From positions 1 through 20,061 of IMG/VR virus record IMGVR_UViG_3300031227_000568: 20,061 nucleotides of DNA. The stretch is one strand, 5' to 3'. The position numbers and the translations under genes are program-made. The notes under the pieces were generated by a model. It had not been told where the DNA came from, searched no databases, and saw nothing but the letters and a program-made list of their open reading frames with translations. The DNA comes from a virus. Of this stretch, positions 2,069 to 20,061 are shown piece after piece; position 1 is the first letter of the stretch; the number at the start of each line of letters is the position of its first letter.

Positions 2069-2595
2069 TATGATTCTCCCTCCAGTTCCTCACCTGAGCC
2101 TAAACTCAAATGAATCACTGTATCCTTAGTATTATTCCTTATCTCTTCAAGCAGGTCCAGTTGCTGCTCCAGTAATTCTTCCATCTTCACATACTCACCT
2201 CCTATAATAAACCAGTCCGAACCATCACATACAATAGATATATACTGGTACTGGAATTGAAGCGTAACTGATTCTTCACCATCAATGGTCTCACTTACAT
2301 CATTGCCCTTTATGACCACAACTCCAGGTGAGTCATCAATCTTCTTTATAACATATACCTTGTGGACACTCCCGGCAGCTATAGGCAATATCAGTTCAAT
2401 GGAGAATGCTGCATCTACTAGCACTACCATCTGGTTGCCTAGGGTAGTATCAGTAGTAACTTCAGTAACTCTAAACTCCCCGGAATAGATGAATGTATTA
2501 CCGCCGGGAGAAACTATTGGTGTGCCTTTCTCCAGGTCATAATAGTTGTGTATAGGAGGTGAAGACCGTTCTGGTCTACCAGTTTTGTCCTTTAT
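2068..2595 (-). CDS. Beta-rich phage protein with no standard start codon at its apparent N-terminus
   Basis: The frame is continuous from about 2640 to the stop at 2068-2070. The first ATG (2428-2430) has no Shine-Dalgarno sequence and would leave about 160 bases non-coding in a packed operon. Upstream of that ATG the frame encodes plausible protein (DKTGRPERSSPPIHNYYDLE, then GNTFIYSGEFRVTEV), continuous in style with the rest. No ATG, GTG or TTG occurs there. A strong GGGGAGGT lies eight bases before an in-frame ATA at 2593-2595 that overlaps the upstream TAA. I take this ATA as the tentative start (175 residues). The C-terminal part is beta-rich up to WFIIGGEY, then an acidic coiled-coil-like helix (MEELLEQQLDLLEEIRNN). 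Function is unknown; it is probably a virion component. The start could also be a sequencing error, a mutated ATG or a frameshift. Confidence 0.65.
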   Translation of the reverse strand: MKDKTGRPERSSPPIHNYYDLEKGTPIVSPGGNTFIYSGEFRVTEVTTDTTLGNQMVVLVDAAFSIELILPIAAGSVHKVYVIKKIDDSPGVVVIKGNDVSETIDGEESVTLQFQYQYISIVCDGSDWFIIGGEYVKMEELLEQQLDLLEEIRNNTKDTVIHLSLGSGEELEGES

Positions 2596-4133
2596 TTGAA
2601 CAGACCTCCCCAGAAGTCTACGATGGTCTTACCAAGTTTCTCTACCTCTCGTAGTCCTCCTCCCATGATTCTACCAAACTCACTACCAAAGGTTTCTCCT
2701 TTATCTTCCTGCCAAGGTGTAGAGCTTTGCCAGATACGACTAATCTCACTACCTAATGTTGCACCCTCTTCTTCTTTCCAAGGTGTAATCCGTTGCCATA
2801 AGTTCTCAGGTTTTAGTCTGTCAGCAGATAAAGGCATTACATCTTTTGCCATCTCTTGCATCAGAGCTATAACCTCAGGAGCAGTGGCCTGTGGTACTTC
2901 TACCTCAATATGCCCTATTGCTCCTTCAGCTGAGTAACCCCCTTCTCGCCATCTTTCTTCAGTTGGCTCAGGTACCCGAACCTTAACTCGTTCTGGTGCA
3001 CTTGCAATATCAGTGGTAGTGCTGACGTCTCCTAAGGTAGCTTCCAATCTAAAACTTCCCGGCCGATAGACATGATGGAGACCAGATATTCTTCTCAGTG
3101 CATCAGGTGGCGCAACAGCATTATAAGAAGCAATTCCCCTTGCAGTAGAGGTAGTATGGCGACCTACGTAGAGTTGCCCTTCTTCACTAACAACAAAACC
3201 GCCAATGCGACCACCTGCTACTCCCCAGGGAGCGTCTGCGGTTAAATCAAGAGACTTAGTCCGAACCGGTGCAGTGCGGTCAGAAATGCTATAAGCTGTG
3301 ACATAGGGGATGAGTCCAGTGAAGTTCATTGCGTATAGTATGTTACCAATTATCTGAATTCTACGCACACCATTCAAATAGACATTATCAGTGAAGACTG
3401 CAACCTCAGAAACATTAGTCGGGTCTCTGGTATCAATGATGTGTAGACGGTCATTAAAGTAGTCCTTGACATACACATACCCGTCATTTGTCTGAGCCAT
3501 TCGAGAAATATCGCTTACACTGCCAGCAATACCAGTACTGTTATTGAATACTAAAGTTGCGCCACTAAAGGTAAAGACAGAGAAACGAGTGGTAGATGAC
3601 ACAAACAAGTATGTATCAGTAGGGTCAACCAGGATTCCCGTAGGTGTGCCTGCCAGATTAGTACTGTCAGTAAAAATCGCTTCTTCAACTATGTTAGTAG
3701 GGTCACTTACATTGACAATTCCAATATGATGCCAAGTTGGACCTGCAACGAGCCATCCTGGAAGATACACATAGTCACCATGTTTGGCCAGGTCAGTCAA
3801 AAAGCTACCAGTGCCTGCTGACAACACAAGGAAGTCATTCAGTACTGGTGCAGCAGGGTCAGTAATATCGAAAGAGCGTAGTAGCTTAGCATGACTGTTA
3901 ATCAAGTACACATGCTTAGAATTAGTAGGGTCAATAAGTATAGCACCTGGAACATAGCCACTGCCTACGGCTGTCCGACTTGCCAAGTCAATATTGGTAG
4001 GTTCAGACATGTCAAATATAGTTACATATCCCCGTTCCGCTAAGATAACATACGGGTCTTGCCACAGCATATCACGAACTGTGATACCACCAGAAGTAGT
4101 ATTTGCATCTAATCTTGCCCCAAACTCTGCCAT
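2592..4133 (-). CDS. LVIVD-type beta-propeller virion protein with C-terminal tandem repeat
   Basis: This is a 513-residue protein with GAGGAG seven bases before the ATG and a one-base overlap with the preceding gene. Residues 30 to about 340 contain about six degenerate LVIVD-like blade motifs: YVTIFDMSEPTNI (36-48), LRSFDITDPAAPV (85-97), IGIVNVSDPTNIV (137-149), FSVFTFSGATL (184-194), LHIIDTRDPTNVS (230-242) and VTAYSISDRTAPV (278-290). Their spacing of about 45-52 residues is that of propeller blades. LVIVD-repeat proteins are known as surface-associated beta-propellers. Residues 445-488 are two tandem 22-residue repeats with core WQxxTPWxExxGxTxGSE, followed by a hydrophobic end (FWGGLFK). 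Lying among fibre-like genes, it may be a receptor-binding or tail-tip protein. No catalytic motif is visible. Confidence 0.75.
   Translation of the reverse strand: MAEFGARLDANTTSGGITVRDMLWQDPYVILAERGYVTIFDMSEPTNIDLASRTAVGSGYVPGAILIDPTNSKHVYLINSHAKLLRSFDITDPAAPVLNDFLVLSAGTGSFLTDLAKHGDYVYLPGWLVAGPTWHHIGIVNVSDPTNIVEEAIFTDSTNLAGTPTGILVDPTDTYLFVSSTTRFSVFTFSGATLVFNNSTGIAGSVSDISRMAQTNDGYVYVKDYFNDRLHIIDTRDPTNVSEVAVFTDNVYLNGVRRIQIIGNILYAMNFTGLIPYVTAYSISDRTAPVRTKSLDLTADAPWGVAGGRIGGFVVSEEGQLYVGRHTTSTARGIASYNAVAPPDALRRISGLHHVYRPGSFRLEATLGDVSTTTDIASAPERVKVRVPEPTEERWREGGYSAEGAIGHIEVEVPQATAPEVIALMQEMAKDVMPLSADRLKPENLWQRITPWKEEEGATLGSEISRIWQSSTPWQEDKGETFGSEFGRIMGGGLREVEKLGKTIVDFWGGLFK
2670..2801 (-). repeat. 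22-residue tandem duplication at the end of the beta-propeller gene
   Basis: Two adjacent 66-base units encode residues 445-466 and 467-488 of the propeller protein. Each has the form [LI]WQxxTPWxExxGxTxGSExxR. About half the residues are identical, and the DNA still shares blocks such as CCAAGGTGTA on the plus strand, so the units probably arose by duplication. Confidence 0.75.
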
Positions 4134-9857: not shown

Positions 9858-10520
9858 TTAACCTGCCGGGTTGCGTACTCCACGAACAGGAGTAGCATCA
9901 AGTACCTTTGAGGCTCTCTCCATCTCTGTCATCGGTGTTGCGCTAGAAGTGAATCCACCGAGAGCATAGTTTCCAGGTCCTCTGGGATTTGTTGATAGAG
10001 CCTTCAGGGCTTCTTCAAAAGAATCAAGCTGTGTGCTGTCTTTTTGAAGGAGGCTTTGACCAGCTTCAGAATCCGCCGGGATATTGTAGGATGCCATGAT
10101 GAGTTTCCTCTTCATATCCAGTAAAGAAGTGTTGGCGGTAGTGAGGTCGGTCTTAGCAGTTTCAGCTTCCTGCTTAATTCTCGATGTCTCTTCGGCAGAA
10201 ACATCTCCCGTACTACGGGCATCAGTGGCTTCTTTAAGAGCAGCGTTTGCCTTGGCTACTTCCTGATTAGACTCAGATACCTGAAGACTCAGTTTATCAA
10301 CTGCGTCCTTATGTACTGTCTGAGCTTCATCTAGTCGCCCCTGCAAACTCCCCTTCGCAGCGATTAAGTCAGACTCTCTGACAAACTTCTTACCGTCTAC
10401 CGTTACCACTCCATCAATTACTTCAAACTTCGGAGCGTCACTGATAGGCGGAGAAGCAGGTGTAGTCTCCCCTTCGCTAACCGGGGCATTGGGTATATTC
10501 TGTTCTCCGTTTGTAACCAT
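9858..10520 (-). CDS. Capsid scaffolding protein
   Basis: This is a 220-residue, mostly hydrophilic protein encoded immediately before the major capsid gene, the standard place for scaffold. GGAGG lies nine bases before the ATG. The N-terminus is Pro-, Thr- and Glu-rich and disordered-looking. VTVDGKKFVRESDLIAAKGS at about 39-58 is a segment often seen in phage scaffolds. Residues about 55-150 are a long Ala-, Glu-, Lys-, Gln-rich coiled coil. The C-terminal 40 residues are Gly-, Ser- and Arg-containing (PVRGVRNPAG), probably the capsid-binding end. Scaffold directs capsid subunit assembly and leaves the prohead before maturation. It is the first gene after the promoter in the gap. No protease domain is fused to it. 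Confidence 0.85.
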   Translation of the reverse strand: MVTNGEQNIPNAPVSEGETTPASPPISDAPKFEVIDGVVTVDGKKFVRESDLIAAKGSLQGRLDEAQTVHKDAVDKLSLQVSESNQEVAKANAALKEATDARSTGDVSAEETSRIKQEAETAKTDLTTANTSLLDMKRKLIMASYNIPADSEAGQSLLQKDSTQLDSFEEALKALSTNPRGPGNYALGGFTSSATPMTEMERASKVLDATPVRGVRNPAG

Positions 10521-10620: not shown

Positions 10621-13600
10621 CTACTCCACCATGCTTTCTTTCAAGTACTGCTTAGTCATATCATTATACATTTCCTCAGCAGTGGTGGTTATGAAAGAGT
10701 CAGTGTTGCCGAAGAAATAAGACCATGCGTCTAACTCCGGGTCAGCGTAGCGAAGGCGTTGGCGAGCTTCTCTCACATTAGTATTGAAGCCTGCGATTAG
10801 CTTCTCGCCATCAGGTCCTATGACTTCTTTCAATGCTTCACGCTCTGTCCCTCGGGCTACTTCATACCTCCTTATTTGCTGACGTTCTTCGTCAGAATAC
10901 TGACCCATTACAATGGTTCGGACGTTTCTGTAAGGTCTGAGGTATTCTCGGCTCACAGACCAGTACAGACGTTCCATCGGAGTCCAGTCAGACTGAATCC
11001 TGGTTAACAATCTCTGCCTATGTGTTTCATCAAGAGACTCTAACAACGCATCTACATGAGCGTAGTATGTGTCGAAGTCTAACTCCATTCGGTCAGAATC
11101 CCAGTTGTATTTGAGTTCAGGCTCAAGCTCATAGTAATACCAAAGGAGTTCCTGGTCAGCACCGTAAGTTGGAGTGACAACGCCCTTCTCTCTCAACCAT
11201 GCCTCACGTTCTTCCAGAGTCTTTGGCACGTCTTTGTATGCAGGACTCTCGCCGAGAACTCTCGCTGCTTCGCCTTGCTGAGACTTAATACTTCCCACAG
11301 CAGATTTCCACTGGTCAGGACCTATCTCCCCTGTCACTCTCTGCCGATTCAAGTCTACAATGGAGGGCCTGACTAACTCCCCATCTTCGTACAACCCAGT
11401 GTACCGAGCTTCAGTTGACATCTTTTCCAGAGTCTCATAATAATCTCTGATTTTTATTTCCATGTTCTGCCAGCCAGAAGGTAATAGTGGAGTAACCATT
11501 CCCTGCCATCGTCTGAAGTCCTCATTTTGGTATAGGAGTTTCTGCTGCAGTACATCTAACTTATAGTAATCACTGAACCGTTTGCCAGTGACTGCACTCA
11601 TCCGGTCAATCTGTTGTTGGATAGAAACTGGTACACCTGTAGCCTCCTCAATAGCCAGGCCCATTTCTCTCTTAATATCTTCATATTCTTCAGGACGAAT
11701 CCTGAATATCCCGGACTGTTCCATTAGAATCCCCTTCAGTCCGTTTGCTTCGGCTTCTGCCCTTAGCCAGATTTTTTCCTCGCCTTCCTCCAACTTAATC
11801 CCCTGCTGCACCTTACTCCATATATCGTCTGCATCGTAGCCATGTTTGCCTAGAGTAAGCATTGTCTGGAAGTCTCGGTAACGGTCAGGGAAGAAATGGT
11901 CTATAACCTTACCCATATGCTCAGGAGACAATGCCCGGAGAGCGGATAGTCCAGTTTTCATAAAGGCTGGCAGTACCTCATTAAACTCAGGTTTGTCTCC
12001 TACAGTAGCTCCCCATACAGTAATAGGAGCCATGATATGTATGCCGGGGTAGAAACCTGCTCTGCCTATAGTGTCAATCTGCTCCATACCTGGCATGGCA
12101 TCGTAGTACTCAGGGAAGTCTTTCATAAAGAATCTTCTCATACCGCCAGCCCAGATAGAGCCTCTGAGAGGATTGAGTTGTAAGTCAGTCCCTGGGATAG
12201 GAATGTAACCACCGTCAGTGTTGTCCATGTATCTAGCCATACCAGTCATTGTGCCGGGAGTCCGCATCCATGTTCTAGGCATCCACTTCCAACGGAAGGC
12301 CTCGTAAGTCCAGAAGGGAAAGATAGCTCTCATAGTTTCATCTATGACATTGGCATCATCGTAAGTAGGGTATGCAAGTTCGTGCATTTCCCTGGCTCGA
12401 GTCATGGCTTGTTCTTTCTTGTCTAACCAAGCTGCCTGGTCAGGAGTCGTAACACCAGGCTTGCCAACCTTTGAAACAGCCTTAGCAGGTCTAATAATAT
12501 CATCCTTAAGAACTATAAACCAAGTATCTAAGTCTATGGCATCGTATCCGGCCTTCTTAGCAGCATTTACTATAAGCTCTTCGCCAGTCCAGTCATACAA
12601 CTCATCTTGCCAATCGTCACCAAACTTGGATACCATATCAGGTTCTATGCCAAGTAGCTTAACAGCCTCCTCCTCACTTTCTGCGACCAGAGGTTTAGAA
12701 GGGCTGAATGTAGACTCGACTACTTCAGGCCCGAACATATCAACTGCTTCTTCTTTGCTCGTAGTATAAAACTGGTGCTCTGCCCATTTTTCTTTCTGGA
12801 CTGCTTCCCCCAAACCTCTATAGTAAACCTTACCTTCTTTATATGTACCAGGGAGTTTTGCTTCTGGAACATCTGTCTTATACATTGAACTTCCCTTCAC
12901 ATCTTCCGCCACTCCACTAACATACTTCCTCCACTTCACTACATCAGTTTCATCCATCTTAACTGTAGCATGGAGTCTATTCAATTCTTGCCTGATGTCA
13001 TCCAACTGCATTACAGTGGGAGAGTCAGGGGTCAGTGTACTTGGTTCCATGCCGAGGTTCCGCCAGAGTTGGTCATAGACTTCTCCTATAGCATCACTAC
13101 TAAATCCAATGTCTGCGGCAGATGTTTCAAACTTCCTAGCATATGCGTCTGCCTGATTTTTGATGTATAGTACAAAGTCTTCCTTTGGTCTGATAGTACT
13201 ATGGTGATGTACCCGAGTCAGTCCTCTATACACATCATCGCCGGAGACTCCGAACAGGTAACTGATATGGCTTGGAGTTAGTTTACCTGCAACTGGCATG
13301 AGGGTTTCAGGAAGATACGGAGCCTTTCCTGCAGATGTCAAGAATGACCGACTCGCATCCAGACGGAGATTCTTAAGTTTCCTTGCATTGATGGTATGAG
13401 TATTCCATACTACAGACTTATCAAGTCGCTGCTGTTTCCAGAATCTGTCACTCGCTGCAATTCTAGCATCAACATCTTTAATCGCACGGATTTTCTTTCT
13501 GGTATTAGGGATGACTGACTCAATCTTACTCAGTTCATTTCTCGTAGCCATTACGTTGGAGTTTTCCAGACGATATAAGTCAGCAAGGCTATCCACTGAG

Positions 13601-16600
13601 GACTTCTGCTGAGGAGTCAACGGAGCATCTACAGTCCCTGTAAAACGCTTTAACTCGTCTACTATCTTGTCCATCTGAACCTTGGACTCTTCCATGAACT
13701 TTCCAAGCAGTTTATTAGAGCCAGTGTGAAAGTCATCTACTTCTTTCCCAGGCTTGAGCTTCTGACTCCTCAATTCCACTAGACTTCTATAGTCATGTAT
13801 CCTTTCATCCACAGCATTCTGGATACCTGTGATATTCTCCAGGTCTCCTAATAGTTCATCAAGATTCTTGGGTGCATGAGAGGCAGGCTCCATGAGTTCT
13901 TTACTGAAATAACCTGGGATAGTTTGTTTGTAGCCAGTACCAGTATACATTAACTTATGCTTGTCTTTGGATACAATAGTTACTTTGCTATATCCTCGTT
14001 CTTTAGCTAAGTTATGAATTACTGTATCCATGTCTAGCATGAATCTGCGGTTAAGTTTGCCAACAGCAGTTACCTCTAGCTCAGAAATCACCATCTCGTC
14101 AGGAGTTGCGCCGGGATGAAAGGTAAGCTTACCTACATCTTCGCCATCTAAACGGATAGGTGCGTCAGAGAACACAAGTCCTTCAGTCACATCTCCTAGA
14201 CCTATGTCTTGGCTAAGTTCATCCAGCAGTGTAGCTGTGTTTGTGTAGGCCTTGACAAAGTCATCTGCTTCAGTCTGCATGGCATCAATCTGTTTAGTCA
14301 GGCTTACCAAAGACATCTCTTGTTCTTCCGCCACCCTCGCTGCCATTCTACCGTCAATGTCTGCAAAGATGCTACCGTCCAGTATCTCATTCCTGATACC
14401 TACTTTTGTGCCTGTACGTACATCAGTACATTTGTCAAAGGTTTTGCCGAGTTGCTGAGAAATCTGTCTCTTCTCAAGCTCTAGTACATCTACTTCCAGA
14501 TGCGCTGCAACGGCTTCATATCCTACAGTAGCGTCCTGAATCATTACTCTCTCAACATCTGTTATATCTTTGGGAGAGTACTTACCTATCTGCTCAAGCT
14601 CGTTACGACGAGTAAGTACGAAGTCTGCCAACTGCTGCATTTCATCCGGGGCAGTTTCATACAGTGCCTTCATATAATGTACTTGATAGTCGTATGACCG
14701 CTGAATAGTAGTCATTTCTTCCCACATGTCATTGTAGGATTGGAAGTCTGTCAGCTTGTATTCTTTACCTCTAATGCTAATACTCTTGCCTATGTCACGG
14801 CCTCGAAACTTTACCCCTTTAGTAATGAAAGGTATTTTGCCATTATTGAACGCAGTAGTGCTACCAGTCTTTGGGTCTACCAAAGCCATTTCCATTCTCT
14901 GTGCGCCACGCTCTGCCATCTGTAACTCATACGGTGCGTTTGTGAGGCCTCGGAATAGACGGTTAGTTTCAGCTACTCCGCCATAACTTTTCGGATATAG
15001 TATCTCCCCACCGCCGAGAAAACTCCGCTGCATGTTCTCGAGGAAGTTAAAAGGCCCGAAATTGGCAAAGAGTAAATTCCACCGAGCATAAGGCATTACG
15101 ACCTTGCGCTCAAAGTTAACTAAACGAGATGCGTGGAGAAACCTGTCAGATACTCGGCTAACCCATGATACGGCTCTTCCCGCCTGGGTCATGTGAGTTG
15201 CTAGCGGACTGGCAAGATTTGCATAACGATTCTCTACCGCATTGTCAAACATGGAGATGAGTTGAGTTGTAGGATTCTCTCCCTTAAACGGTTTCAATGC
15301 TCCTGCAATGATGTCGTCTTTTAGCACCGCTAACTTCGCCATTACTTTATTAAAGGAAGCATCAGTCTGAATCAGCCCTAACTTAGTAATAATGTTGCCT
15401 GATGTTATCTGAGGACTTTGTCCGGAGAACATATTGAGGACTTCGTCATTCAGGCGACTGAGACGGATAGTATCAAATTCAAAGCCTTCATCTACTACAC
15501 CTTTCAGAATAGCTCCCCACTCGTCTGAACCTATGTACTTGAACTCCATTAACTCAGTTCCAGTTTTCACCATAAGGTCATGGCCTTCGCCAGGTCTTTC
15601 TATCGCAGCATTGACACAGGCCTCAGCAGTTTCACGTAGTTCTCTCGCAGTCAGTCCTGTCATATTTCTTACATTAGGAAATGCTCTGTCTGCCACAGCC
15701 TTGAAATTCATGGAAGTCTGACGAGCAAAGTTCCTGGACATCTGAGTTATGGTTCTGGGTATCTGATATCCTGCTCCAGAAAGCCAGAAGCCTCCTTTAA
15801 CAGGAGCACTGATAAGCCAGAAAGCACCTTTGACAGGAACCAATGCTGCCTTCATTCCAGCCTTAAACACTAAGTCAGAAGTCTCTGCAAAGCCACTTTC
15901 CATTGCACCTACGAAAGGACCGATTCTGCTGCCTACAGTTTTCAGTCCAACTCTGGTAAGACTTCTTCCCGCCATTTTTGCAGCGGCAGTTCCGAAACCT
16001 ATTCCAATGTAGGAAGTGAGGTCAAAGGCAGTCTCAATTCCCATACGCATAAGCCAGTTCATGTCTGTCTCACTCATAGCCAAGGCGTAGGATGCCCAGT
16101 CTGTCTCACCCTTACTTTTGTAGTACTGGTAAGTATCGTGCATTCTCCCGGCAAGAGTTTCATCGTCAGTCTTAAATAACTTATGCACTCCAATGATTGC
16201 AGCAGAGGCTAATGGTCTTGGAAGCATGTCGAAGTACTTATCTAACAGTTGAATCGAACCCATGACAGGCTGGACGAACATCAAGTTGGCAAACTCGCCA
16301 GGAGTTAACTCAGGGGACTCAGGCTGAAGTAAACCAGCCCGGATTAGATTCAGACGGTCAGTTTCCTTTGCCCAGGCACTGGCTCGCTCTCTCAGATACA
16401 CATCTAACTCTACCTGAGTTTCCTCGTCAAGTTGCATGTACGACAAGGTTTTCCTCATGTTCTCGGCAGTCAACCCCTCAGGCATGTCTATTGCAAAAGG
16501 CTGCATAGACCGCTCAAGTTCGTCAATCGCTAAGTTATGGACTGCCCGAGTCTCCAGCTTCGGCTCAGACAATATCTCAGTTACAATTTTATTCTGGGCA

Positions 16601-17172
16601 TCTTCAATGGAGCCTGTGAAGTCTGCAGGCAGTGTGTTGTTGAGATAATCTAACTTATCCAGTGTACCTTCCAGCCAGTCTCTATCCACTGCGCTTAGAG
16701 TACTGTTAGAAGTCAACTTAAGCACATCGTCTACATTAGATATGGTGTAGTTCTGGCTAGCCAAGTAACCAGGCAGTGTGTTCAGAATCTCTAACCGCCA
16801 CTCAAGACTTTCAAGTTCACGAGTGCTAAGGTCAAGTTCAGCCTGCGCCTCTGCTCTTTGCTGTGCAATAGTTTCTGGAGAAATAATTCCGCCTGCCGCA
16901 GACTGAAACCATCCTTCAGGAGTACCAAAAAGCAGACGCATTACAGGACTTGTACCCTGGTAGCTGAGAGGATGAGGAGTACCTGCCAGGTTTATCTTAT
17001 CTACTCTCGTAGCAGCCTTGATAACTTGCTTCTCTATCCCATACAAACCTTCGCTGTACTGTTGTTTCTCTGCACCAAAACCTGGGAAGTACTCAGAAGG
17101 TTTAGGCGGAGGAGGCACTTCTCTCGGCTTATCTCTTATCAGTTCTTCTTTATCTTCTATCGGTTGAGTCAT
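10621..17172 (-). CDS. Giant multidomain virion protein (2183 aa) with ADP-ribosyltransferase-like and GNAT-like regions
   Basis: The protein has 2183 residues and starts nine bases after the portal stop, with AAGGAG five bases before the ATG. Its place between portal and scaffold is where minor head (MuF-type) proteins usually lie, and very long polyvalent proteins in phages are thought to be packed in the head and injected with DNA. Visible parts: a Pro-rich N-terminus (about 15-35); helical regions; a hydrophobic stretch at about 380-470 (AFWLISAPVKGGFWLSGAG); a Pro/aromatic segment at about 695-720 (FANFGPFNFLENMQ); a GNAT-like region at about 995-1095; coiled-coil-like helices at 1100-1280; an ADP-ribosyltransferase-like region at about 1447-1565; an aromatic block at about 1614-1682 (IFPFWTYEAFRWKWMPRTW); and a helical C-terminus. 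No RNA polymerase, transglycosylase or Walker motif was seen. Overall role is inferred from position and length. Confidence 0.7.
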   Translation of the reverse strand: MTQPIEDKEELIRDKPREVPPPPKPSEYFPGFGAEKQQYSEGLYGIEKQVIKAATRVDKINLAGTPHPLSYQGTSPVMRLLFGTPEGWFQSAAGGIISPETIAQQRAEAQAELDLSTRELESLEWRLEILNTLPGYLASQNYTISNVDDVLKLTSNSTLSAVDRDWLEGTLDKLDYLNNTLPADFTGSIEDAQNKIVTEILSEPKLETRAVHNLAIDELERSMQPFAIDMPEGLTAENMRKTLSYMQLDEETQVELDVYLRERASAWAKETDRLNLIRAGLLQPESPELTPGEFANLMFVQPVMGSIQLLDKYFDMLPRPLASAAIIGVHKLFKTDDETLAGRMHDTYQYYKSKGETDWASYALAMSETDMNWLMRMGIETAFDLTSYIGIGFGTAAAKMAGRSLTRVGLKTVGSRIGPFVGAMESGFAETSDLVFKAGMKAALVPVKGAFWLISAPVKGGFWLSGAGYQIPRTITQMSRNFARQTSMNFKAVADRAFPNVRNMTGLTARELRETAEACVNAAIERPGEGHDLMVKTGTELMEFKYIGSDEWGAILKGVVDEGFEFDTIRLSRLNDEVLNMFSGQSPQITSGNIITKLGLIQTDASFNKVMAKLAVLKDDIIAGALKPFKGENPTTQLISMFDNAVENRYANLASPLATHMTQAGRAVSWVSRVSDRFLHASRLVNFERKVVMPYARWNLLFANFGPFNFLENMQRSFLGGGEILYPKSYGGVAETNRLFRGLTNAPYELQMAERGAQRMEMALVDPKTGSTTAFNNGKIPFITKGVKFRGRDIGKSISIRGKEYKLTDFQSYNDMWEEMTTIQRSYDYQVHYMKALYETAPDEMQQLADFVLTRRNELEQIGKYSPKDITDVERVMIQDATVGYEAVAAHLEVDVLELEKRQISQQLGKTFDKCTDVRTGTKVGIRNEILDGSIFADIDGRMAARVAEEQEMSLVSLTKQIDAMQTEADDFVKAYTNTATLLDELSQDIGLGDVTEGLVFSDAPIRLDGEDVGKLTFHPGATPDEMVISELEVTAVGKLNRRFMLDMDTVIHNLAKERGYSKVTIVSKDKHKLMYTGTGYKQTIPGYFSKELMEPASHAPKNLDELLGDLENITGIQNAVDERIHDYRSLVELRSQKLKPGKEVDDFHTGSNKLLGKFMEESKVQMDKIVDELKRFTGTVDAPLTPQQKSSVDSLADLYRLENSNVMATRNELSKIESVIPNTRKKIRAIKDVDARIAASDRFWKQQRLDKSVVWNTHTINARKLKNLRLDASRSFLTSAGKAPYLPETLMPVAGKLTPSHISYLFGVSGDDVYRGLTRVHHHSTIRPKEDFVLYIKNQADAYARKFETSAADIGFSSDAIGEVYDQLWRNLGMEPSTLTPDSPTVMQLDDIRQELNRLHATVKMDETDVVKWRKYVSGVAEDVKGSSMYKTDVPEAKLPGTYKEGKVYYRGLGEAVQKEKWAEHQFYTTSKEEAVDMFGPEVVESTFSPSKPLVAESEEEAVKLLGIEPDMVSKFGDDWQDELYDWTGEELIVNAAKKAGYDAIDLDTWFIVLKDDIIRPAKAVSKVGKPGVTTPDQAAWLDKKEQAMTRAREMHELAYPTYDDANVIDETMRAIFPFWTYEAFRWKWMPRTWMRTPGTMTGMARYMDNTDGGYIPIPGTDLQLNPLRGSIWAGGMRRFFMKDFPEYYDAMPGMEQIDTIGRAGFYPGIHIMAPITVWGATVGDKPEFNEVLPAFMKTGLSALRALSPEHMGKVIDHFFPDRYRDFQTMLTLGKHGYDADDIWSKVQQGIKLEEGEEKIWLRAEAEANGLKGILMEQSGIFRIRPEEYEDIKREMGLAIEEATGVPVSIQQQIDRMSAVTGKRFSDYYKLDVLQQKLLYQNEDFRRWQGMVTPLLPSGWQNMEIKIRDYYETLEKMSTEARYTGLYEDGELVRPSIVDLNRQRVTGEIGPDQWKSAVGSIKSQQGEAARVLGESPAYKDVPKTLEEREAWLREKGVVTPTYGADQELLWYYYELEPELKYNWDSDRMELDFDTYYAHVDALLESLDETHRQRLLTRIQSDWTPMERLYWSVSREYLRPYRNVRTIVMGQYSDEERQQIRRYEVARGTEREALKEVIGPDGEKLIAGFNTNVREARQRLRYADPELDAWSYFFGNTDSFITTTAEEMYNDMTKQYLKESMVE

Positions 17173-17181
17173 GTTAACTCC

Positions 17182-18897
17182 TTATCCTGAGACATTAGGT
17201 GCCGGAGGAATACCTTCAGTTCTATTACCTATAGCAGGGCGTTGAGGAGGAGGAGCAGTAGGTGAAGGTTGCTGAGGGATAAGTTTAGCTTCTGCTGCAT
17301 TAGCCGCCGCCTCGTATAACTTCGCAGCCGCAGCATCTTTATCAGCCAGGTAAGCAGCTTGCTTTCTGTAATATCTCACCTGCACTATGACTGCGTTCTC
17401 CGGGCTGAGTTCAACCTGGTCTTCTAACCGCCTTGCACGTTCTCTCATCGGGTCTCGAATCTCCGGGAATAGTTTACTAACAGTTAACGTGTATGACAGA
17501 GCGAAGTCCGGGTCAAGCATCCTGGCCACAGTAGCTCGCTGTATTAAGTCTCCCGGTATCTCAATTTCAAAGTCAGCGGAGACTTCAGCATTGGAAGGCA
17601 GACCTACAGGTAGTTTCCAGCCGTAAGGCCTTATCCCTCGCTGTTTAACATCTTCAAGCCAGTCGTTGTCTATGTCAGATATGAGGTTCTGTAATGCCTG
17701 ATGAAATGGCCGGATTACTTGGTTAGCAGAAGCAGAAATCTGAGCCATGACGTAGGCAGACATTTGGCCTGTGACACTGCCATACATCGCCCAACTAACC
17801 CCACCTCTCTGCAACATCGCTTCCAAGTCAAGCTGAGTACTTCTCAATTCCATTGGCATAGGAGGAGTACCCATGAAGTCCACAGAATCCTCTGGAGAAC
17901 CTCTGAATATGGCTCCTCTTCTCCACACATCCTCCGGCATGACGATTTTCTTCCCCGACCTGCTACGCTCAAATATTCTGGGCTGAGCAGTATCCCGGAG
18001 AAGTTGTAGACTGAATGTCTCCCACTTGTTCCAACTCTTATACACAAACTCATTAGTCGCCAGTATGCTCTGGCCGATTTCTTCCTTCCACCTCTCCCCA
18101 GTAGTTGAGCCTGCATTGAAGGATGTGCTGAGTTCAGAATTCTCACTCAATGGGCCTGTATCAGGAAGTCCCCCCACAGGCGCAATGTATATAGGCATTT
18201 TGGTAAAGCGTGTGGGTTCGAACTTTACTAACTTACCTGCTATAACTGTAGAGTTCCAGACTCTATATGTGAAAGGAAATTCCGATGCAATCTCCATCCA
18301 CCAGAGGTCATAGACTATCTGGTCTCCTCTCAATGCACCCACATCAGTTAAACCACTTGCCAGTATCATCTGCATAGCTCGCTTTGCGCTGACAGGGAAG
18401 ATATGGGCTACTTCGCCCAGACCCATGTCTCCGTCCCACATAGGGAATACTTGGGCAGGATTCCATAGGTCAAGATATGCCTCTTTACCCCAGTCATCAA
18501 AGGCCGCCCAGACAGAATACCAGCCAGTCGCCAGTAGCAGCCCGATTAGACTTCTGTTAAGACTCTGTCTAGGGCCAGACTTTCTGAATTTCTTCGCCAC
18601 GTCTGCCCAGGCAGTGTCCATGAGTCTACCAACCGCAGCACTCGCTCCTGCAAACTCCATGTCAACATCATCCTGAGACTTTAGTCTATGAGGAATGTCT
18701 GTATCGAGCATGTGGAGGACTAAGTTGAACATTGACCTGGGGTCATTGCCTACAAAACTTTCCATCTTTGCAGTCTTCAACTCATCAATCATTTCAATGA
18801 GTTTATACCACACTCTCATCTTGGCATTTCGAGGTTCCCAGAAAGTCTTTAACTCATTACAATGAGCTATTATTTCTCTACTCTCAGCTTTAATCAT
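17182..18897 (-). CDS. Portal protein
   Basis: This is a 571-residue protein encoded right after the terminase large subunit (14-base gap), with GGAGG five bases before the ATG. It would form the dodecameric ring at one head vertex through which DNA enters and leaves. The length is usual for phage portals. The N-terminal part is helical and charged (EIIAHCNELKTFWEPRNAKM). The middle has a wing-like region with DLWNPAQVFPMWD and VYDLWWMEIASEFPF strands, patterns often seen in portals. A later VSWAMYGSVTGQMSAYVMAQISASANQV helix may correspond to the crown/stem helices. The C-terminus after about residue 520 is Ala-rich helix followed by a Pro-rich tail (PSPTAPPPQRPAIGNR). Identity rests on gene order plus these patterns; the portal fold itself cannot be checked here. 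Confidence 0.8.
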   Translation of the reverse strand: MIKAESREIIAHCNELKTFWEPRNAKMRVWYKLIEMIDELKTAKMESFVGNDPRSMFNLVLHMLDTDIPHRLKSQDDVDMEFAGASAAVGRLMDTAWADVAKKFRKSGPRQSLNRSLIGLLLATGWYSVWAAFDDWGKEAYLDLWNPAQVFPMWDGDMGLGEVAHIFPVSAKRAMQMILASGLTDVGALRGDQIVYDLWWMEIASEFPFTYRVWNSTVIAGKLVKFEPTRFTKMPIYIAPVGGLPDTGPLSENSELSTSFNAGSTTGERWKEEIGQSILATNEFVYKSWNKWETFSLQLLRDTAQPRIFERSRSGKKIVMPEDVWRRGAIFRGSPEDSVDFMGTPPMPMELRSTQLDLEAMLQRGGVSWAMYGSVTGQMSAYVMAQISASANQVIRPFHQALQNLISDIDNDWLEDVKQRGIRPYGWKLPVGLPSNAEVSADFEIEIPGDLIQRATVARMLDPDFALSYTLTVSKLFPEIRDPMRERARRLEDQVELSPENAVIVQVRYYRKQAAYLADKDAAAAKLYEAAANAAEAKLIPQQPSPTAPPPQRPAIGNRTEGIPPAPNVSG

Positions 18898-18911: not shown

Positions 18912-20061
18912 CTATTTGCCCCAGTCATCGTCCCATCCTCCGTCATCCCCAGTGTTGCCTGCATAACCTATTGCGACAGACTGTGCAAATCTACAGCATA
19001 CTGCAATCACTCCTGCGTCATGGTGGTCATCTGCTCCAACTACCGATATTCCATACTTCTTCGTAGGGTCTCTACGGATGTTCTTGCACTGAGACCAGAA
19101 TCTATCATCATTACATTCTATGTCTTCCATGTGGCGGTTAAGTTCTGTCAGCATATAAGGCTTAGTAGATGTGTTAGTCTGCCAACCGACAGACCTGACT
19201 GACTTACCACTACGAACATCTTCACGGTAGTAGAGACTTGGATACCCTCGCAGATGGCTTACTATGTCTAAGTTATCTTCTGGACACGCCACCGCATCAT
19301 TATAGTACTTACCAAACTCTTTACAGTACTCCGCCATTTCCCACTCGTCATACCAGCCTGATAAAGTAGCATCGTGACGAAGTACTGGCGGTATGTCATT
19401 GTTATCCTTATCAGTGAAGCCATCTTCAAAGTGCCAGATATGGCCTACAGATTCTGACGCCTTTCCCTTCCCAGGGTCTATGCTCATGACGTAAGGAAGA
19501 CCTTTCTCAACGTCTCTCCATATCTGAGCGTCAACACTTACTCCAGTCTTCTTGTTAATGAAAGGACGAGTTATCGGGGCAGGATAGCATGTTCGGAGTT
19601 TCTGGCTAATAATGTCTGTCGAGTATGCTTGGTTTCCCGCAGTGATAAAGCATGACTCGTCATCTTCAGGATACTCCTGATTGAACATAAATATCGTTGC
19701 ACCTGTACGTTGCAGAGACTTCATTTCGGCCTGCTTGTACCTTCTCCAACGAAGTTTCGCCATAGATAGTTTTGTACCCCAGTTGAAGTCACTGATAAAC
19801 TTCTTCATTAGAAGTTGCTCCTCAGCATCCAAGTTGGGCAGGGGGTCTACAGCGTCAGCAGTAAGACAGAATGGGTCGTCAACGTACATGACGTATTCTG
19901 GATGGAAGAACCAGGGGTAAAAGTGAGGCCTGTATACAGATTCAATGCCTCCTGCCCCGATACGTTGTCCTTCTTTTGCAGTACAATACATTTCACAGAA
20001 TGGGTTATCTTCACCATTTGCAGTGCTGCCAATCCGAATCTTAGTTCCTGCCTTCAATGGA
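18912..20061 (-). CDS. Terminase large subunit, 5' end outside window
   Basis: The frame stays open to the window edge. The TTG at 20055-20057 is internal, because the first visible residues (IRIGSTANGEDNPF) already match the coupling motif late in the terminase ATPase domain. The Walker A and B part is therefore missing. About 380 residues remain. The nuclease domain (RNase H-like) shows YVMSIDPGKGKA with its metal-binding Asp, ACPEDNLDIV as the second acidic motif, and GADDHHDAGVIAVCC as the third, close to the usual HDD/HxDx pattern. The C-terminus is Asp/Trp/Gly-rich (GGWDDDWGK). The protein cuts concatemeric DNA and drives it into the prohead through the portal encoded next. There is no sign of the small subunit inside the window. 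Confidence 0.9.
   Translation of the reverse strand, partial: PLKAGTKIRIGSTANGEDNPFCEMYCTAKEGQRIGAGGIESVYRPHFYPWFFHPEYVMYVDDPFCLTADAVDPLPNLDAEEQLLMKKFISDFNWGTKLSMAKLRWRRYKQAEMKSLQRTGATIFMFNQEYPEDDESCFITAGNQAYSTDIISQKLRTCYPAPITRPFINKKTGVSVDAQIWRDVEKGLPYVMSIDPGKGKASESVGHIWHFEDGFTDKDNNDIPPVLRHDATLSGWYDEWEMAEYCKEFGKYYNDAVACPEDNLDIVSHLRGYPSLYYREDVRSGKSVRSVGWQTNTSTKPYMLTELNRHMEDIECNDDRFWSQCKNIRRDPTKKYGISVVGADDHHDAGVIAVCCRFAQSVAIGYAGNTGDDGGWDDDWGK

Follow-up and report, generated by a model that had tools for sequence, protein, structure and literature searches.

Phage polyvalent proteins are large proteins encoded near the late virion genes of portal-terminase phages, which carry ADP-ribosyltransferase (ART), GNAT, Pol-beta nucleotidyltransferase and zincin-like domains and among which a RimI-like GNAT has been described beside an ART (Iyer et al. 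2017, PMC5512222). In T7, gp16 carries an N-terminal peptidoglycan hydrolase, a domain missing in P22/Sf6, and domain loss and swapping occur among ejection proteins (PMC8954989). The N4 virion RNA polymerase gp50 is a giant protein of several domains that exits the virion together with the DNA (PMC12633501), T4 Alt is a single-function ART of the R-S-E clade that is packed in the head and injected with the DNA (PMC5512222), and MuF polymorphic toxins have been reported only from temperate phages (PMC5576092). Here, the IMG/VR virus record IMGVR_UViG_3300031227_000568 (20,061 nucleotides, all of which is referred to as the window) was analyzed with respect to one minus-strand gene, at positions 10621-17172, that encodes a protein of 2183 residues, termed the giant protein. 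Comparison with its relatives revealed a conserved, nearly all-helical scaffold with exchangeable cassettes at fixed internal sites, two of which are filled in the window by enzyme-like regions.

Like the polyvalent proteins, the giant protein comes from a portal-terminase phage, in which its gene lies among those for late virion proteins, and its family has the ART, GNAT, Pol-beta nucleotidyltransferase and zincin classes, the window's own GNAT being recognized by fold only; the interpretation in a preliminary description of this sequence, which drew on polyvalent proteins, is partly supported and can be extended. Unlike them, the family is built on one conserved scaffold, absent from INPHARED, with fixed internal sites and very fast exchange. 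What is new here is the putative ejection-type scaffold with fast-exchanging cassettes, the polyvalent-type domain classes being already known. As with the MuF toxins, the giant gene lies directly downstream of the portal gene and variable enzyme-type domains sit on a conserved carrier; in contrast to those toxins, the variable parts are internal and the C terminus is the best conserved part. The MuF domain PF04233 was absent from nine records at E ≤ 1, other MuF domains being covered only by a Pfam scan of the giant protein, and nine records of 42-44 kb contained no tyrosine integrase, with other integrases not searched for. No RNA polymerase module of the kind found in N4 gp50 was identified in the giant protein by Pfam or fold search. 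T4 Alt provides a model for the proposed action of the giant protein but, unlike it, is not a cassette on a giant scaffold.

The giant gene starts with ATG, has AAGGAG just 5′ of it and runs for 2183 codons (∼242 kDa) free of internal stops, with the probability of so long a frame arising by chance at the base composition of the window being ∼4e-52. Moreover, the family's frame is preserved among relatives that are 22-70% identical. The single long protein between the portal and the scaffold genes, as claimed in the preliminary description, is thus real, whereas the impression of a single odd protein gave way on comparison to a family of at least 49 distinct relatives in IMG/VR. These were gathered using the terminase and portal as seeds and then a growing alignment of the giant protein; the last scan alone produced 74 loci. 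The M2 and C1 core blocks that the site analysis required were present in 73 proteins, of which 49 were distinct, and the relatives range from ∼1830 to 2425 residues. Relatives of the giant protein numbered zero in GTDB genome contigs, and in tblastn searches of INPHARED neither the window protein nor relative L108 had a scaffold match and L102 matched solely via an SLT domain. In three loci (L118:8011-14568, L101:687-3042 and L068:7938-11620) the giant gene occupies two frames, which may reflect sequencing error, frameshifting or real fission.

An alignment of 31 members, 22-70% identical, separates the conserved scaffold, which is common to all members, from inserts found at fixed places near residues 609, 980, 1182, 1281, 1406 and 1430 (window numbering). 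AlphaFold2 models of residues 1-985 (pLDDT 66.7) and 978-2177 (pLDDT 63.0) are nearly all helical, in keeping with the long helices noted previously, and from a comparison of coordinates sites 980, 1182 and 1406 appear to be loops between long helices. Relatives L043 and L018 have inserts near residue 330, that of L043 being glycine-zipper-like. The chain contains several domains, as first proposed, and its gene is part of the late head module in a portal-terminase phage. Enzyme content is a property of the cassette and not of the giant protein family.

Judging from sequence comparison, the giant protein is probably an internal-virion (ejection or pilot) protein of a short-tailed-type phage that bears exchangeable polyvalent-type effectors. 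This reading is the most economical because it accounts for the position of the gene, the size and helical make-up of its product and an SLT domain in relatives. The SLT transglycosylase domain (PF01464) is located at the N terminus of L098, L099, L102, L103 and L112 (E 3e-12 to 2e-16, above the cut-off), followed by the family scaffold, and an ejected internal protein is favored since these five distant members have an N-terminal SLT domain like that of T7 gp16. The terminase large subunit (TerL; best tblastn match 'Podoviridae sp.' MW202692, E 5e-21) resembles podovirus terminases. The order TerL, portal, giant, scaffold-like protein, major capsid protein is constant wherever flanking sequence is available, also among the deep members. 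In comparison with T7 gp16, the giant protein is likewise long and mainly helical; it differs in the location of its gene between portal and scaffold-like protein, in its effector-type cassettes and in the lack of an SLT domain in the window clade, and its scaffold has no sequence or fold match to gp16 (PDB sequence search, Foldseek).

Circular assemblies end in direct repeats. The 43,377-bp IMG/VR contig, part of which is 100% identical to 19.4 kb of the window, and a 42,188-bp relative each end in a 127-bp direct repeat and so are probably both complete. In these two end-repeat records (43.4 and 42.2 kb) the giant genes are the sole genes of more than 607 residues, which leaves no second protein of that size to act as tape measure or ejection protein. 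This bears on whether the giant protein could instead belong inside a tail, as a tape measure or otherwise, with an SLT domain, insertions that are tolerated and a gene out of the usual order. Such a protein would be long and helical, no other candidate for it exists in the two records, the L102 SLT domain has its best matches among tail lytic/tape-measure proteins, and a Foldseek search of BFVD with the scaffold lists tape measure proteins, although at TM-scores of only ∼0.1. We nevertheless consider it unlikely: the gene lies between portal and scaffold-like protein and never beside recognizable tail genes, insertion of 100-350 globular residues would alter tail length, the enzyme-type domains would be left unexplained, and TerL points to podoviruses. 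The strict position inside the head assembly module, together with the SLT domain in relatives, also argues against a protein made late that stays outside the virion and works in the cytoplasm of the producing cell, for instance to prevent superinfection or to alter host functions; the cassette enzymes could work in that setting, but we regard it as very improbable.

Comparison of close relatives indicates that cassettes swap faster than the scaffold diverges. L052 and L046 share 94% scaffold identity, yet differ at sites 1182, 1406 and 1430, and in L044, L049, L053 and L055, whose mutual identities or identities to L052 are 81-88%, modules differ or are absent. Cassette differences were recorded among relatives at scaffold identities of 85-94%. 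The DNA identity in such pairs is ∼78-91% on either side and ends at the cassette, and homologous cassettes were found at different sites of the scaffold (phmmer, hhalign). Site 1430 is empty in 22 of the 49 distinct proteins and filled in 27, two of which (L041 and L052) contain mainly inteins. On a quick tree of the C1 block, with those two scored as empty, the state of this one site changes 18 times, as compared with 16.6 ± 2.0 for shuffled labels; because the two numbers match, the filling of site 1430 appears to carry no phylogenetic signal, a result we treat as indicative. In L044 (12681-13358) the site-1430 module is bracketed by a 13-bp direct repeat, ACTACTGCTAAGG, and L052, whose scaffold is 88% identical to that of L044, contains just one similar copy and lacks the module, which suggests that the module was lost or gained through recombination between short repeats. 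As the members are all metagenomic and the cassettes are embedded in otherwise similar sequence, chimeric contigs have to be considered; they are an unlikely source of the variation because independent assemblies repeatedly show the same cassette arrangements (L045/L051, L049/L056/L067, L039/L065 and L043/L072/L074). Furthermore, the frames remain open across the junctions and the same sites are used family-wide, so that we give an assembly artefact hardly any credence.

The enzyme-like regions claimed in the preliminary description were found at residues 989-1092, with a GNAT fold, and, less firmly, at residues ∼1436-1570. In the AlphaFold2 model residues 989-1092 have the strand and helix order b-b-b-b-a-b-a-b-b, and in a Foldseek search of the PDB with the 1200-residue model GNAT-type acetyltransferases accounted for every one of the top 50 hits (probability mostly 0.96-1.00), with a ribosomal-protein-alanine acetyltransferase ranking first; the E-values were just 0.05-0.4, which probably reflects the long query. 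Eight members have this module (phmmer E 1e-17 to 1e-22; hhalign), the window protein and five relatives at site 980 and two further relatives at site 1182, and GxLN[RK][RQ] (with variants) and KxxHxxxYxxxxY are conserved across them and across both sites. At the sensitivity used it was found in IMG/VR only inside the giant family. Of the checks proposed at the outset, structure prediction yielded the GNAT fold, and searches with the whole window protein against Pfam, PHROGs and PDB sequences produced nothing significant. Pfam matches to DUF2390 and C1orf109-like (E 0.03-0.04) were dismissed as chance, and PHROG 'tape measure/lysin' matches, one member each, were not traced to a member and probably stem from hydrophobic or low-complexity inserts. 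Profile searches of the PDB that started from the ART and GNAT modules gave no meaningful match, and tblastn of four modules against phages gave no significant match.

The second window cassette matches the site-1182 module of L048 (phmmer E 9.5e-7 with flanks; hhalign E 0.0035 without flanks), and a small ART-module profile ranked the window ORF second-best untrained among 1429 ORFs, but with E of 0.3-1. No close copy of this allele exists elsewhere in IMG/VR. Across the family the sites contain GNAT, ART-like, Pol-beta nucleotidyltransferase or zincin-like cassettes, or are empty, site 1182 being occupied in 10 of ∼26 relatives. The modules of relatives are identified more securely than those of the window: GNAT PF00583 in L049 and NTP_transf_2 PF01909 in L073 and L119 are above cut-off; ART-PolyVal PF18760 in L077 (E 9.4e-6) is below it, and the ART-PolyVal match in L039 has E 0.036. 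Several of the family's enzyme domains fall under curated cut-offs or have no profile match, and look divergent. The zincin-like assignment is at motif level: among the first 31 members HExxH occurs only in the site-1182 modules of L062 and L057, and since chance alone would give ∼1-2 occurrences in 57,000 residues, it is this confinement, and not the count of two, that is suggestive of a zincin. Two or more enzyme classes per chain were found in family members by weak profile, motif and similarity evidence, and L098 has an SLT domain and an ART-like insert in one chain. A helical-looking module also recurs, at site 1182 in L042, L044 and L061 and at site 1406 in L044 and L046 (E 4e-28 between the two sites of L044).

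Three intein-like inserts of ∼300 residues, with HINT-like ends and LAGLIDADG-like motifs, are located at three points of the family's most conserved motif, after residues 1651 (L002/L041), 1621 (L032) and 1624 (L052) in window numbering. Inteins are usually located in functionally critical motifs, and the motif may therefore be essential. A further intein-like insert lies in a Cas4-like nuclease gene of a 42-kb relative (L009:9550-11091, minus strand) and is lacking in the window's own genome.

The presence of inteins in the giant gene, its location in the head module and the frequency of empty sites (22 of 49), from which it follows that no single cassette is essential, would all be compatible with a portal-proximal structural head protein whose inserts are neutral or parasitic passengers instead of delivered effectors. 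The inserts are, however, enzyme classes known from phage polyvalent proteins and not random sequence, one cassette retains conserved residues in eight members at two sites, and an SLT domain is present in deep members, which together make passengers an improbable explanation.

Several observations weigh against the proposed ejection protein. The AlphaFold2 confidence is only moderate (pLDDT 63-67, pTM ∼0.33), the scaffold has no solved-structure match by PDB sequence search or Foldseek, and Foldseek of the N-terminal model gave no match. The Pfam scan identified no SLT domain in the window protein, and the hydropathy scan no clear transmembrane helix; of the hydrophobic segments described previously, only moderate ones stood (best 19-residue Kyte-Doolittle mean 1.24, residues 440-458). 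The GNAT cassette has GxLN[RK][RQ] in place of the usual [RQ]xxGx[GA] coenzyme A signature at the expected position, and its predicted acetyltransferase activity is consequently uncertain. The assignment of residues ∼1436-1570 as ADP-ribosyltransferase-like is weak on its own, the region having no Pfam match. Finally, that the protein is present in virions, is ejected, acts as an enzyme and has targets in the host is what we infer from sequence comparison.

As an ejection protein, the giant protein would be packed near the portal during head assembly and would exit with the DNA, aiding its passage across the envelope. The cassettes, in the window the GNAT and probably the ART, would be carried to the cytoplasm to modify host proteins, which would most likely blunt defence or steer early transcription or translation. 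Cassette choice would track the defences of the local host, and this would explain the rapid exchange. It is also possible, although somewhat less likely than not, that the ejection scaffold is a general carrier, with fixed inter-helix docking sites, interchangeable effectors and a content independent of phage ancestry, such that each phage would deliver a different counter-defence set before viral gene expression, and with inteins repeatedly colonizing its most conserved motif. If the ejection reading is true, the cassette sites are a ready catalogue of phage effectors used within minutes of the onset of infection, and closely related members that differ in cassettes but not in carrier are natural swap experiments on which cassette answers which defence. 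A DNA-ejection protein would, moreover, tolerate and possibly transport added folded domains, which bears on protein passage through the portal channel.

Positions of the giant gene, its parts and its neighbours in the window
Feature	Position	Strand	Evidence
Terminase large subunit, cut by window end	18912..20060	-	tblastn to podovirus terminases, best E 5e-21
Portal-like protein, 571 aa, directly upstream of giant gene	17182..18897	-	Order and size
Giant protein gene, helical scaffold and two cassettes	10621..17172	-	ORF call, at least 49 distinct relatives
Scaffold block N1, residues 95-470, all-helical	15763..16890	-	hmmsearch in relatives; AlphaFold2 model, pLDDT 66.7 overall
Scaffold block N2, residues 478-960, with strongly conserved 691-750	14293..15741	-	Alignment and hmmsearch in relatives
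GNAT-fold cassette, residues 989-1092, site ∼980	13897..14208	-	AlphaFold2 fold, Foldseek, conservation
Cassette site ∼1182, unoccupied in window, loop joining two long predicted helices	13615..13641	-	Alignment, AlphaFold2 model
Scaffold block M2, residues 1290-1412, containing cassette site ∼1406 (unoccupied in window)	12937..13305	-	Alignment and hmmsearch in relatives
ART-like cassette, residues ∼1436-1570, hypervariable site 1430	12463..12867	-	Motifs YYRG..FYTTS..EA..GEE..GYDAIDL; phmmer, profile rank
Scaffold block C1, residues 1592-2183, best conserved part of family	10624..12399	-	Alignment and hmmsearch in relatives
Most conserved motif, FPFWxYE..RW.W.PR..TPG..RYM..TDGGY, residues 1617-1657	12202..12324	-	Family alignment
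Scaffold-like protein, coiled-coil, 220 aa, directly downstream of giant gene	9858..10520	-	PHROG 530 (head maturation) weak, E 0.005; conserved order
Major capsid protein, 356 aa	8768..9838	-	PHROG 212, E 6e-10

TerL is 564 residues long in the 43,377-bp contig. Homologues of the portal-like protein lie upstream of the giant gene in nearly all loci that have flanks, and its putative identity follows from gene order and size, with no profile naming a portal; the 220-residue protein is likewise considered a candidate scaffold protein from its order and size. Small structural protein genes come after the major capsid gene. At window positions 2592-4133, a 513-residue protein with weak LVIVD/propeller-like matches is possibly a receptor-binding or tail protein, and a 361-residue structural protein of the window has enlarged homologues of 965 residues (L100:13070-15964) and 864 residues (L132:20494-23085).

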